Positions 50,738 through 55,362 of a stretch of 64,000 nt of DNA are shown here, one piece after another. The notes under the pieces are model-generated. The model searched no databases and had not been told where the DNA came from. It saw nothing but the letters and a program-made list of their open reading frames with translations. The position numbers were made by a program, and so were the translations under genes. The stretch lies in the NCBI GenBank assembly GCA_002798295.1, contig NWQT01000017.1, positions 1-64,000 on the forward strand, read 5' to 3'. This DNA is from Lysobacteraceae bacterium NML07-0707. GTDB taxonomy: Bacteria; Pseudomonadota; Gammaproteobacteria; Xanthomonadales; Xanthomonadaceae. Positions within the stretch are counted from its first letter, which is position 1. The number at the start of each line of letters is the position of its first letter.

Positions 50738-51502
50738 ATGAGCGATAGCCGATTTTTGCTGATTTCATTGCGCCCCCGTGGTGAGCACGCCGCATTGCGC
50801 CGCGTGGCCAGAGCCCATGGCGGGCAGGTCTTGGCACTCTCACCCTGGCAGATTGAACAGTTGGCCGATGCGCCTGCGCGCGCCGCACTTGCCCAGGCAA
50901 TGGCCTGCCCGCAGGTGATTTTCACAAGTCCCGCCGCCGTCAAGGCCGCCGTGGCTCTGGAGGCGTTTGCCCCGGACTGCCGTGCGCAATGCCTGGCCGT
51001 GGGTGAAGGCACACGCCGCGCCCTGCTGCGCGCCGGCCTGCAGGAGGCCATCGCCCCGGCACGGATGGACAGCGAAGGCTTGCTGGCGCTGCCGGAACTT
51101 GCCCAGCTGCCCGCAGGCGCACAGGTCGGGCTTGTCACCGCGCCGGGGGGGCGCGGCCAAATCCTGCACCAATTGCAGGCGCGCGGCATCGACGTGCGGC
51201 GCGCCGATATCTACCGGCGCAGACCGCTGGCGCTGTCCGCACGCGACCACGCACGCCTTGCCCAAGCTCTGACAACAGACAGGCCGCAGTATCTGGCACT
51301 CTCCAGTGGCGAGGCGTTTGAACATATCCTTACCCTGCTGCCCGATACACTCTTGTCCACATTGCGCGAGAAGGTCGGCATCATCGCTGCCAGCGCGCGC
51401 CTTGCCGCACTGGCCCGGCAGCGGGATTTCCAAACCCATGCCATTGCCGCCAGCGCCCGCCCAGGCGATTTGCTCGCTGCACTTCAACATCCGGAAAATT
51501 GA
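50738..51502 (+). CDS. hemD: uroporphyrinogen-III synthase
   Basis: It cyclises hydroxymethylbilane to uroporphyrinogen III in haem and sirohaem synthesis. About 254 residues from the ATG at 50738; ATG 50696 is also in frame. It shows the weakly conserved bilobed HemD pattern: VIFTSPAAVKAAVALEAF, GLVTAPGGRGQILHQLQARG and YLALSSGEAFEHIL. It overlaps the polA start by one base. hemC is not next to it. The family diverges quickly, so the name rests on these motifs and length. Confidence 0.85.
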   Translation: MSDSRFLLISLRPRGEHAALRRVARAHGGQVLALSPWQIEQLADAPARAALAQAMACPQVIFTSPAAVKAAVALEAFAPDCRAQCLAVGEGTRRALLRAGLQEAIAPARMDSEGLLALPELAQLPAGAQVGLVTAPGGRGQILHQLQARGIDVRRADIYRRRPLALSARDHARLAQALTTDRPQYLALSSGEAFEHILTLLPDTLLSTLREKVGIIAASARLAALARQRDFQTHAIAASARPGDLLAALQHPEN

Positions 51503-54243
51503 TGAAAAAACTGGTTCTGATTGATGGCTCGTCCTATCTGTATCGTGCCTTCCATGCCCTGCCGCCCCTGACCAATGCCGCAGGCGAGCCGACCGGCGCG
51601 CTGTTTGGCGTGGTCAATATGCTGCGCGCCCATATCAAGGAGGCACCTGATTACATCGCCTTCGTGATGGATGCGCCCGGGCCGACCTTCCGCGATGCGC
51701 TGGATGCCCAGTACAAGGCCAACCGTCCGCCGATGCCGGATGATTTGCGCGCGCAGATCGAGCCGCTGATGGCAATCGTCGCCGCATTGGGGCTGCCAAT
51801 TCTGCGCCACAGTGGGGTCGAGGCCGATGATGTCATCGGCACGCTGGCGCAGCAGGCCGCCGAAGCCGGTGTTGCGGTCATCATTTCCACCGGTGACAAG
51901 GACATGGCGCAACTGGTACGCCCCGGCGTGACGCTGGTCAATACCATGAGCGGCAGCCGCATGGATAGCCGCGAGGCGGTGATGGACAAGTTCGGCGTAC
52001 CGCCCGAGCGCATCGTCGATTATCTGTCGCTGATGGGCGACAAGGTGGACAACATCCCCGGCGTGGACAAATGCGGGCCCAAAACCGCCGCCAAATGGCT
52101 GGCCGAATACGGCTCGCTCGATGGCGTTATCGAAAACGCCACCCATATCAGGGGCAAGGTCGGGGACAACCTGCGCGCCGTGCTCACGCGGCTGCCGCTG
52201 AACCGTGCGCTCGCCACCATCCGCACCGACGTGGAATTACCGCAGCGCTTTGATGCGCTCACCCCAAGCGCTGCCGATGAAGTCGCGCTGCGCACGCTGT
52301 ATGGCCGTTATGGCTTCAACCAGGCCTTGCGGGAACTGGACGGCACCGCCCCTGCCGATAGCAGCAAAAAGGCCACGGGCAACATCCGCATGCCGGCAGA
52401 AAAAGCCACAAGCGCCATCGACCCGGCGCTTGGCGTGGCGGGGCAATACCAGACCGTGCTCAGCCGCGCCGAGCTGGATGCCTGGCTTGCCAAGCTCGCC
52501 GACGCACCGCGCTTTGCCTTCGATACCGAAACCGACAGCCTGGACGCCATGCGCGCCCATCTGGTTGGGATAAGTCTTGCCACCACCGTGGGCGAGGCCT
52601 GCTATATCCCGTTGGCGCATCAATATCCCGGCGCGCCAGCGCAATTGCCGATGAGCGAAGTACTCGATGCGCTGCGGCCGTTTTTTGCCGATGCCGGCAA
52701 GCCAAAAATCACCCAGAACGGCAAATACGACCTGCATGTGCTGCGCCGCCATGGCGTTGAGGTGGCAGGTCTTGCCGATGACAGCCTGCTGCAAAGTTTC
52801 GTGCTCGACTCCACCCAGCGGCATGATATGGACAGTCTGGCCAAACGCCTGCTGGGCATCGACACCATTGCCTATACCGATGTGGCCGGCAAGGGCGCCA
52901 AGCAAATCTCGTTTGCCGAAGTGCCGCTGGATACCGCCACCCGTTACGCTGCCGAAGATGCCGACATCACCCTGCGGCTTGCACAGGCGCAGATGGCACA
53001 ACTGGCCGAAGTCCCCGCGCTTGCCCGGGTTTACCGGGAAATCGAAATGCCGCTGCTGCCAGTGCTGGCGCGTGTCGAAGCGCATGGCGTACTGATTGAC
53101 AGCGAGGCGCTGCGCCAGCAATCGGCCGATCTTGGCCGGCGCATGCTCGATGCCCAGCAGCGCGCCACGGACATCGCCGGACGCAGCCTCAATATGGATT
53201 CACCCAAGCAAATCGGCGCCCTGCTGTATGACGAGCTGAAACTGCCGGTATTGGTGAAAACCCCGGGCGGCGCGCCCTCCACCAACGAAGAAGCGCTGGA
53301 GGCGATTGCCGATCAACACGAGCTGCCGCGCATCATTCTGGAATATCGCGCACTCACCAAACTGCGCAATACCTATACCGACAAACTGCCGGGCATGATC
53401 AACCCGGATACCGGCCGGGTACATACCAGTTACAACCAGGCCGGCGCCGCTACCGGGCGACTGGCCTCCTCCGACCCCAATCTGCAAAACATCCCGATTC
53501 GCAGCGAGGACGGCCGCCGCATCCGCCGCGCCTTCATCGCCGCGCCCGGCTGTCAGCTGCTGGCCTGCGACTATTCGCAAATCGAGCTGCGCATCATGGC
53601 GCATCTGTCCGAAGACCCGGCGCTGATTGCCGCCTTCGAAAAAGGCGCGGACATCCACCGCGCCACCGCCGCTGAAGTATTTGGCAAGCCCATCGATAGC
53701 GTCGATAGCGATGAGCGCCGCGCCGCCAAAGCCATCAACTTCGGCCTGATTTATGGCATGAGCGCCTTTGGTCTGGCGCGCCAGCTGGGGGTCACGCGCG
53801 GCCAGGCACAGGACTATATCGCGCTGTATTTCAGCCGCTATCCCGGCGTGCGCGATTACATGGAACGCACCCGCGAGCAAGCCCGCGGCCAGGGCTTTGT
53901 GGAAACCGTGTTTGGCCGCCGCCTGTATCTGCCCTATATCCACTCACGCAATCAGGCACAGCGCGCTGGCGCCGAGCGCGCCGCCATCAACGCGCCGATG
54001 CAGGGCACGGCTGCGGACATCATCAAGCGCGCGATGATCGCCATCGATACCTGGCTGCAAGCACAGGCAAACCGCGCCCGGATGATCATGCAAGTCCATG
54101 ACGAATTGGTGTTCGAGGTGGAAAACGACTTCCTGCCTGAATTGACGACCGAAGTCAGCCGCCGGATGAGCGCTGCTGCCGAACTGCGTGTACCGCTGGT
54201 CGTGGACTGTGGCAGCGGGCAAAACTGGGACGAAGCTCACTAA
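51502..54243 (+). CDS. polA: DNA polymerase I
   Basis: It fills gaps and removes RNA primers in replication and repair. The 913 residues carry a 5'-nuclease domain (LVLIDGSSYLYRAFHALPPL, GVEADDVIGTLA, YLSLMGDKVDNIPGV), a 3'-5' exonuclease with the intact DxE (FAFDTETDSLDAM), and a polymerase domain with motif A CDYSQIELRIMAHLS, motif B RRAAKAINFGLIYGMSAFGL and motif C MQVHDELVFEV. The ATG at 51502 overlaps the hemD stop. A small-RNA gene follows it. Confidence 0.98.
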   Translation: MKKLVLIDGSSYLYRAFHALPPLTNAAGEPTGALFGVVNMLRAHIKEAPDYIAFVMDAPGPTFRDALDAQYKANRPPMPDDLRAQIEPLMAIVAALGLPILRHSGVEADDVIGTLAQQAAEAGVAVIISTGDKDMAQLVRPGVTLVNTMSGSRMDSREAVMDKFGVPPERIVDYLSLMGDKVDNIPGVDKCGPKTAAKWLAEYGSLDGVIENATHIRGKVGDNLRAVLTRLPLNRALATIRTDVELPQRFDALTPSAADEVALRTLYGRYGFNQALRELDGTAPADSSKKATGNIRMPAEKATSAIDPALGVAGQYQTVLSRAELDAWLAKLADAPRFAFDTETDSLDAMRAHLVGISLATTVGEACYIPLAHQYPGAPAQLPMSEVLDALRPFFADAGKPKITQNGKYDLHVLRRHGVEVAGLADDSLLQSFVLDSTQRHDMDSLAKRLLGIDTIAYTDVAGKGAKQISFAEVPLDTATRYAAEDADITLRLAQAQMAQLAEVPALARVYREIEMPLLPVLARVEAHGVLIDSEALRQQSADLGRRMLDAQQRATDIAGRSLNMDSPKQIGALLYDELKLPVLVKTPGGAPSTNEEALEAIADQHELPRIILEYRALTKLRNTYTDKLPGMINPDTGRVHTSYNQAGAATGRLASSDPNLQNIPIRSEDGRRIRRAFIAAPGCQLLACDYSQIELRIMAHLSEDPALIAAFEKGADIHRATAAEVFGKPIDSVDSDERRAAKAINFGLIYGMSAFGLARQLGVTRGQAQDYIALYFSRYPGVRDYMERTREQARGQGFVETVFGRRLYLPYIHSRNQAQRAGAERAAINAPMQGTAADIIKRAMIAIDTWLQAQANRARMIMQVHDELVFEVENDFLPELTTEVSRRMSAAAELRVPLVVDCGSGQNWDEAH

Positions 54244-54336
54244 ATGAGAAGTTCATGCCGAAACCATTGAAAATAAATGAAAATTTAACACCCGGATTCA
54301 GCCTGCATCCATGTCCATCGTGCTTAACTATCGCCC

Positions 54337-54461
54337 GTCAGATGCAATGTCTGACGCCGATCACTCCCTCTCCCCTGGAGTTGATCTTATGAGTGGCATC
54401 CCTCCCCAAGATGCCGCTCTCTCCCCTGCCCCGCCCGGCTCCCCCTCCGGCGGGGCTTTTT
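54337..54461 (+). ncRNA. sX13-like small RNA downstream of polA
   Basis: About 125 bases just after polA fold into four stem-loops: GTCAGA/TCTGAC (54337-54355); GATCACTCC/GGAGTTGATC with loop CTCTCCCCT (54359-54386); GGCATC/GATGCC with loop CCTCCCCAA (54395-54415); and GCCCCGCC/GGCGGGGC with loop around CTCCCCCT (54428-54456), followed by T5. Three C-rich loops, the polA locus and the size of about 115 nt match what I recall of Xanthomonas sX13, an sRNA that binds G-rich ribosome sites. A TTAACTAT -10-like sequence is at 54324-54331. Confidence 0.8.
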
Positions 54462-54537
54462 AATGTCCGGGCCATTAGAATCACGTCCATCTTGATAAAG
54501 CGATACAATTTCCGCCTTTCCCAATCAGGCCGCCGCG

Positions 54538-55362
54538 ATGCTCCCCATCAGCTTTGAAATTTATCCCCCCAAAAACGATGACCAGCGCGCCCAGCTTGAC
54601 CGCACCCTGGAAAAGCTCAAGGCATACCAACCGCAGTTCATCTCCTGCACCTATGGCGCAGGCGGCTCAACCCGCGAACACACTGCCGAAACCGTGCAGC
54701 TGCTGGGCAGCAAACATGGACTCGAAGGCGTGCCACACTTGACTTGCATCGGCAGTACACGCCAGGAAATCATCCAGCTGCTGACACACTACCAACAACA
54801 AGGCGTGCGCCGTATCATCGCGCTGCGCGGTGATATGCCCTCGGGCATGCTTGACCCGGGAGAGCTGCGCCATGCCAGCGACCTGGTAACGCTTATCCGT
54901 GAATCATTCGGCCAGCACTTCCATATCGAAGTCGCCGCCTACCCGGAAACCCACCCACAGGCGCGCGATGCACTGGCCGATATCGAAAACTTCAGGCGCA
55001 AGGTGGATGCCGGCGCCGACAGCGCCATCACCCAATACTTTTACAACGCCGATGCCTACTTCCGCTTTGTCGATGATGTACGCGCCCGTGGCGTGGAGGT
55101 GCCGGTGGTGCCGGGCATCATGCCGATTTCCAACTTCAGCCAGCTGCAACGCTTTTCCGAAAGCTGCGGCGCAGAAATCCCGCGCTGGGTGGTACAGCGG
55201 ATGCGCGCATTCGGGGATGATAGCGGCGCAATCCGCGAGTTCGCCGCTGACTTGGTCGCTGCACTCTGCCAGCGGCTGATTCACGGCGGCGTACCGGGTC
55301 TGCACTTTTACACCCTGAACCTGGCCCGCCCGGTTGGCAACATTTTGAAGCGTTTGCAGTAA
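54538..55362 (+). CDS. metF: 5,10-methylenetetrahydrofolate reductase
   Basis: This FAD enzyme reduces methylene-THF to methyl-THF, the methyl donor for methionine. The 274 residues start MLPISFEIYPPKNDDQRAQLDR and include SCTYGAGGSTREHTAE, LRGDMPSG and VVPGIMPISNFSQLQRFSE. It sits 76 bp after the sX13-like terminator. CTTGATAAAGCGATACAAT (54491-54509) carries a possible -10, TACAAT. Confidence 0.95.
   Translation: MLPISFEIYPPKNDDQRAQLDRTLEKLKAYQPQFISCTYGAGGSTREHTAETVQLLGSKHGLEGVPHLTCIGSTRQEIIQLLTHYQQQGVRRIIALRGDMPSGMLDPGELRHASDLVTLIRESFGQHFHIEVAAYPETHPQARDALADIENFRRKVDAGADSAITQYFYNADAYFRFVDDVRARGVEVPVVPGIMPISNFSQLQRFSESCGAEIPRWVVQRMRAFGDDSGAIREFAADLVAALCQRLIHGGVPGLHFYTLNLARPVGNILKRLQ

Follow-up and report, generated by a model that had tools for sequence, protein, structure and literature searches.

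An sX13 gene downstream of polA

The window, by which we mean the whole analysed stretch of 64,000 nucleotides, contains a short element that lies after polA and before a metF-like gene, all on the same strand. The features of this locus are as follows.

51499 to 54243, + strand: polA, the upstream neighbour (open reading frame with tblastn relatives; name read from the translation)
54325 to 54331, + strand: possible -10 element TAACTAT (proposed from alignment with the TATA of relatives)
54336 to 54462, + strand: sX13 sRNA gene of about 125 nt (RF02232, model R1 and fold; 5′ end predicted)
54336 to 54356, + strand: 5′ stem-loop with arms 54336-54343 and 54349-54356 and loop GCAAU at 54344-54348 (fold and covariation)
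54359 to 54386, + strand: stem 1 with C-rich loop CUCUCCCCU at 54368-54376 (fold and Rfam alignment)
54391 to 54419, + strand: stem 2 with C-rich loop CCUCCCCAA at 54401-54409 (fold and Rfam alignment; the stem covaries in part)
54428 to 54461, + strand: terminator, a stem at 54428-54456 followed by T5, with C-rich loop CUCCCCCU at 54439-54446 (fold and covariation)
54538 to 55362, + strand: metF-like gene, the downstream neighbour (open reading frame; name read from the translation)

The first-pass annotation had proposed an sX13-like small RNA (sRNA) gene at this place, and had named a run of the Rfam sX13 model and a covariation check in relatives as ways to examine the proposal. Using cmscan with Rfam 15, we found a match to RF02232 (sX13) at 54346-54462 that spans the whole model and, at 57.1 bits, exceeds the gathering score of 50. 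This is at the low end of the scores that pass the threshold, the top member reaching 141.2 bits. Elsewhere in the window, just one further Rfam match reaches its gathering score, a SAM riboswitch (RF00162; 58906-59012, - strand, 89.9 bits). The proposal is upheld by this match, and also by conservation of the element across the family and by compensatory changes in its stems, both described below.

The predicted fold of 54337-54461 consists of four consecutive hairpins followed by five T-nucleotides, with apical loops that read, from 5′ to 3′, GCAAU, CUCUCCCCU, CCUCCCCAA and CUCCCCCU. The four stem-loops and T5, and the C-runs in three of the loops, are thus present just as first described. 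With a minimum free energy of -55.9 kcal/mol, the element is far more stable than its dinucleotide shuffles (mean -32.55, z -7.08), none of 200 of which was as stable as the native sequence. Two traits by which sX13 copies are recognized are present: three stems with C-rich apical loops including a terminator, in the predicted fold, and a polA gene upstream on the same strand. A covariance model trained only on the window's family (model R1; 72 sequences, 5′ stem included) gives 94.2 bits at 54334-54462, the window being part of its training set. In simple scans of 54100-54600, no sigma-70 consensus site was detected, and a terminator search listed no site, not even the stem and T5 at 54428-54461. 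Judged from its sequence and predicted structure, the element is a genuine copy of sX13, which is an already known family.

Conservation in the family and the polA neighbourhood

In a tblastn search with PolA, the closest named loci listed were from Thermomonas hydrothermalis (70%) and Lysobacter (68%), though near records may be omitted from this list, and we take the window's family to be Xanthomonadaceae/Lysobacteraceae. RF02232 was found in 38 of 60 relatives, namely in 34 of 36 genomes of the window's family and in 4 of 24 from elsewhere in the order. A larger sample gave matches in 237 of 247 family genomes, with the gathering score reached in 195 of the 247. When only genomes with at least 90% completeness and at most 5% contamination are considered, the number is 221 of 224. 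With laxer filters, a weak match emerges in two of the three well-assembled misses (G074 and G112) but not in the third (G216).

We extracted 124 sX13 loci, picked for spread rather than as a full list. Of these, 114 have a polA gene upstream on the same strand, with a spacing of 85-417 nt in 111 and of 817, 2161 and 2279 nt in the other three. At the locus with the largest spacing (L233, genome G245), an open reading frame that we read as transposase-like lies between polA and sX13, and the sRNA is retained. The remaining ten loci, among which are copies in genera g3, g5 and g53, have no polA in the fetched stretch. The available text of PMC3771888 describes sX13 as always downstream of polA, which thus seems not to be true for every copy. 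The sX13 genes without polA are often second copies (L007/L111 in G018, L125/L112 in G020, L160 in G147 and L228 in G232). By our own reading of the neighbouring frames, L125 is flanked by hemF and plsB, and L122 also adjoins a hemF-like gene.

The closeness of the polA end to the element, together with the absence of a consensus promoter in 54100-54600, would fit an element that is only the 3′ end and terminator of the polA mRNA, with no separate sRNA. We regard this as very improbable, because four conserved stems and conserved C-rich loops exceed what a terminator comprises, and because the same form is kept in copies away from polA (e.g. L111, L112 and L125). Moreover, the Xanthomonas orthologue is described in the available text of PMC3771888 as an abundant separate RNA with phenotypes.

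A conserved 5′ stem and the start of the RNA

The available text of PMC3771888 gives sX13 a length of 115 nt and an unstructured 5′ region, and places the start of its gene 175 bp after the polA stop codon. In one of our loci (L127), which is taken to be Xanthomonas from its RF02232 score of 141.2 bits, exactly 175 nt separate the polA stop codon from Rfam position 1. The published 5′ end thus corresponds to Rfam position 1, and to 54346 in the window. Position 54346 is the centre of a symmetric hairpin, and the hairpin at 54336-54356 straddles the published and Rfam 5′ end.

We analysed this hairpin in 118 of the 124 loci, having dropped four outside the family and two whose match starts differently. 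Over the seven pairs at distances 3-9 from the centre, the 85 unique sequences give 595 cells, of which 495 are Watson-Crick, 83 G-U and 17 other; the innermost pair is U-G in 65 of the 85. We then placed eight pairs (distances 3-10) on a PolA protein tree of 109 loci, where 843 of 872 cells are paired and 41 branches have both sides changed with the pair kept. When the partners were slid by 1-3 bases as a control, only 182-399 cells were paired, with 0-4 double-change branches. A MAFFT alignment of 72 sequences agrees, with 98.3% of the stem's cells pairing versus 24.2-49.8% in slid controls, and with double changes in six of the eight pairs. The stem is also predicted unprompted by RNAalifold. 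The window itself carries one such double change, since the pair 54338/54354 is U-A, a combination found in 7 of the 85 sequences, 64 of which have A-U. The check for covariation thus reveals conserved stems and compensatory double changes.

In 48 of the 118 loci, a TATA precedes Rfam position 1 by 19 nt. This spacing from the published end suggests a start near the foot of the 5′ stem; as the scan for a consensus promoter was empty, the promoter argument rests on column conservation. The start at 54337 given in the first-pass annotation is a better fit than Rfam's 54346, because it includes the 5′ stem.

These observations suggest that sX13 probably has four stems, and that its primary RNA is probably 8-10 nt longer upstream than published. 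Transcription would start at the foot of the 5′ stem, at about 54336-54338, and the stem could shield the 5′ end of the RNA. The published end, which falls inside the loop of this stem, might then be a processed or truncated end. The available text of PMC3771888 reports that a lac-promoter construct of the published sX13 complemented in Xanthomonas, and that a construct without the first 14 nt did so too, which makes the 5′ stem dispensable for that activity.

The symmetry could instead reflect a DNA palindrome or operator over the start site, with no RNA stem and with transcription starting at 54346 as annotated. The published 5′ end does sit at the centre of the palindrome. In addition, if the innermost pair is set aside, G-U cells are not clearly above other one-sided departures, and at distances 4-10 there are 17 one-sided changes from pair to pair versus 13 to a non-pair. 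Yet the arms vary freely while remaining complementary, as the 41 double changes attest, whereas in a protein-binding site one would expect the bases to be preserved. The U-G that predominates in the innermost pair would be a mismatch in DNA, and the TATA block is too far upstream for a start at 54346. We therefore consider the palindrome improbable and favour an RNA stem. Both Rfam 15 and the functional paper use a structure that would be corrected by the extended 5′ boundary, from which a different primary transcript is also predicted.

Further upstream, a conserved block extends from about -49 to -33 relative to Rfam position 1 (about 54297-54313 in the window), with consensus TTCACGAAC..ATC.ATG. 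A TTCACGA-like match is present in 79 of 117 unique sequences, in 64 of them at -49. A site for a regulator or a sigma factor is one possible explanation of this block. A family promoter resembling those of ECF sigma factors (GAAC near -44, GTC near -23) was also considered, and was dropped as the window sequence has no GAAC.

Mechanism and targets

In the available text of PMC3771888, repression of reporters by sX13 needs both its C-rich loops and G-rich motifs of the target. These motifs are located at or near translation starts, and protein synthesis is lowered. Loop 2 is important for two targets and several regions for a third, and Hfq is not required. The mechanism is underpinned by mutants of the loops and of the targets.

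The loops of the window's RNA resemble the C-rich loops of Xanthomonas sX13. By analogy, the window's RNA probably silences mRNAs through these loops: the three C-rich loops would pair with G-rich sites near the start codons of mRNAs and, if the available Xanthomonas findings (PMC3771888) carry over, this pairing would lower protein synthesis with no need of Hfq. One published target was looked up. In the hfq gene of the window's genome, we found no GGGG between about 100 nt upstream and about 200 nt downstream of the likely GTG start. As the published site is missing in this genome, hfq is not supported as a conserved sX13 target.

Taking structure and mechanism together, we consider it highly likely that 54336-54462 encodes an sX13 sRNA of about 125 nt that has an extended 5′ stem and that acts by pairing of C-rich loops with G-rich sites.

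Similar RNAs beyond the family

Model R1, trained as it was on one family, was then applied to more distant genomes, using E-values that are rough for this model as for model R2 below. Within the order, 93 of 200 genomes have a match at E ≤ 0.001, 36 of these (by row count) in the window's family. A search of 686 kb, made up of the window and 80 named polA loci, gave 27 matches at E ≤ 1, all of them past polA and on its strand. At E ≤ 10, 26 of 28 matches in 75 of the loci (L036-L110) lie 38-801 nt past polA, a zone that makes up about 5% of the sequence searched. The two exceptions are at L089:4930, 1651 nt past polA, and at L070:1117, on the opposite strand. The 26 matches fall in 21 loci, one of which (L036) is within the order and 20 of which are outside it, as far as record names tell.

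Folding of 27 such matches gave at least two hairpin loops with CCC in 23, and the 5′ hairpin in some but not all. Hairpins with CCC in the loop occur at 0.92 per window in the 500 nt past polA (73 loci) versus 0.32 in 548 other windows, whereas hairpins with GGG in the loop are not enriched in the same windows (0.26 versus 0.29). At gathering score, Rfam names only 3 of 17 R1 spots, all as ErsA (L085, L088 and L097), and the other 14 are unnamed.

In the class, 30 of 369 genomes have an R1 match at E ≤ 0.01. Of these, 25 lie outside the order, and about four chance matches are expected if the rough E-values hold. A polA gene is 34-712 nt upstream on the same strand in 16 of the 25. Among the remaining nine, the match in L280 is at a contig edge, and L283, L289 and L294 represent one genus and have good architecture. 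The other five (L291, L292, L295, L297 and L298) are probable false positives; the letters of L292 resemble part of a tRNA. An apical GCAA in the 5′ hairpin is common to several matches outside the order and the window's family.

Tandem sRNA copies are present past polA at several loci: four each in L276 and L286 (G584 and G691, of one genus), three in L036, two or three in L047 and two in L065.

Association with polA or engB

A second model, R2, was trained on 54 R1 matches, including those from 16 genomes of the class. In 66 polA loci outside this training set, all 14 matches at E ≤ 10 (in 13 loci) are 55-315 nt past polA on its strand. Six of the matches are in Pseudomonas-type loci and score 23-28.3 bits. 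Since 12 of the 13 loci had already been matched by R1, this is not a blind test.

Across the class, R2 matches 161 of 369 genomes at E ≤ 0.01, in 125 of 272 genera. Among the matches listed, R2 hits at least 127 genomes outside the order, in 93 of which polA is listed as well. Of these 93 genomes, 54 have the RNA on the polA strand and no more than 3 kb downstream of the gene, and in 48 the distance is no more than 500 nt. It is not so placed in the other 39, in four of which it adjoins the polA 3′ end on the opposite strand. We searched for EngB (TIGR03598) in 40 genomes, comprising the other 35 exceptions and five genomes with unlisted polA, and 29 have it above the cut-off. In 24 of these, the RNA gene and engB converge, 23 times within 641 nt and once at 1668 nt. 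In the other five, the RNA is once beside engB on the same strand, and four times on another contig. The window's genome also has engB on another contig. In Herbaspirillum aquaticum (L318) and Undibacterium hunanense (L323), the match is between a gene with an EngB motif and one that we read as hemB-like. In a search of 14 further named genomes, R2 gave a match at E ≤ 0.05 in eight; it found nothing in Burkholderia peredens, Xenorhabdus, Methylomonas, Hahella, Pseudocolwellia and Methylophaga.

These patterns lead us to lean towards the view that sX13, ErsA, anti-hemB and many unnamed RNAs are one ancient sRNA gene of Gamma- and Betaproteobacteria, situated between polA and an engB gene that is convergent with it. 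Such a gene would consist of a 5′ stem, stems with C-rich loops and a terminator with a C-rich loop. It would have stayed with one of the two genes where polA and engB separated, and formed tandem arrays of up to four copies in some lineages. The same reading holds that the 5′ end described for sX13 falls within a conserved stem, which would make the primary RNA longer than published.

A less likely but still substantial alternative is that the R1 and R2 matches outside the order are not homologous, and that unrelated sRNAs or terminators look alike due to C-rich loops that resemble anti-Shine-Dalgarno sequences. The alphaproteobacterial ar14 model (RF02344) scores 38.3 bits at 54353-54461 of the window, below its gathering score of 58.8, and this cross-match keeps convergence on C-rich loops a live rival. 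Several Rfam families with C-rich loops also cross-match the same spots. Furthermore, matches in Pseudomonas-type loci are weak, Burkholderia peredens and five other genomes are missed by R2, and 39 of the 93 listed genomes lack the expected placement near polA. On the other hand, a model trained on a single family placed 26 of its 28 matches in a zone immediately past polA and on the polA strand that makes up about 5% of the sequence searched. Of its matches in 25 class genomes outside the order, 16 lie beside polA. Most of the tested exceptions to the polA link of R2 (24 of 29) proved convergent with engB. Finally, L276 has sub-threshold matches to the sX13, ErsA and anti-hemB models alike. 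On balance, we prefer a single family over chance resemblance.

Our search of the PMC library found no paper that names both ErsA and sX13 and, among the records listed, no title or abstract that links the sX13, ErsA and anti-hemB families; one paper, PMC3771888, has sRNA together with the phrase 'downstream of polA'. Within the literature thus covered, neither the 5′ stem nor a polA-engB family was found in print. If the family is real, the separately named regulators sX13, ErsA and anti-hemB become comparable, copies found without annotation can be annotated and tested, and the persistence of such an RNA at this locus becomes a testable question.

Comparison with known sRNA families

The window's RNA is most like sX13 (RF02232) of Xanthomonas campestris pv. 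vesicatoria, as described in the available text of PMC3771888, in its locus, its three stems with C-rich loops, its terminator and its size. It differs from the published RNA in that we count a conserved 5′ stem where the paper calls the 5′ region unstructured, and in that the published hfq site is absent from the window's genome.

ErsA/Pseudomon-1 (RF01719) and Spot 42 (RF00021) had been mentioned in the first-pass annotation as also lying by polA, and we located both downstream of polA in the loci examined. Neither is among the four Rfam matches at E ≤ 5 on 53900-54900. ErsA has a C-rich loop in its terminator, and the R1 and R2 matches coincide with it in L085, L088 and L097, with weak scores of 11-28 bits. 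However, according to the available texts of PMC5819304 and PMC8575079, ErsA pairs through an unstructured U-rich region and depends on Hfq for its action. Spot 42, which is downstream of polA in L071 and L090, gave no R1 or R2 match, and is described in the available text of PMC3771888 as an Hfq-dependent regulator of carbon metabolism. ErsA has been called a functional orthologue of Spot 42 (PMC8395346, available text).

Anti-hemB (RF02837) scores above threshold at three matches outside the order, beside polA in L290 and L299 and beside engB in L305. On the window, it reaches 14.1 bits, below its gathering score of 49.5, and R2 has no match in Burkholderia peredens. The alphaproteobacterial ar7 resembles sX13 in its C-rich loops and in its location at polA (PMC3771888, available text). 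The same text notes the polA locus that sX13 shares with Spot 42 and ar7, and asks whether other bacteria have such RNAs.
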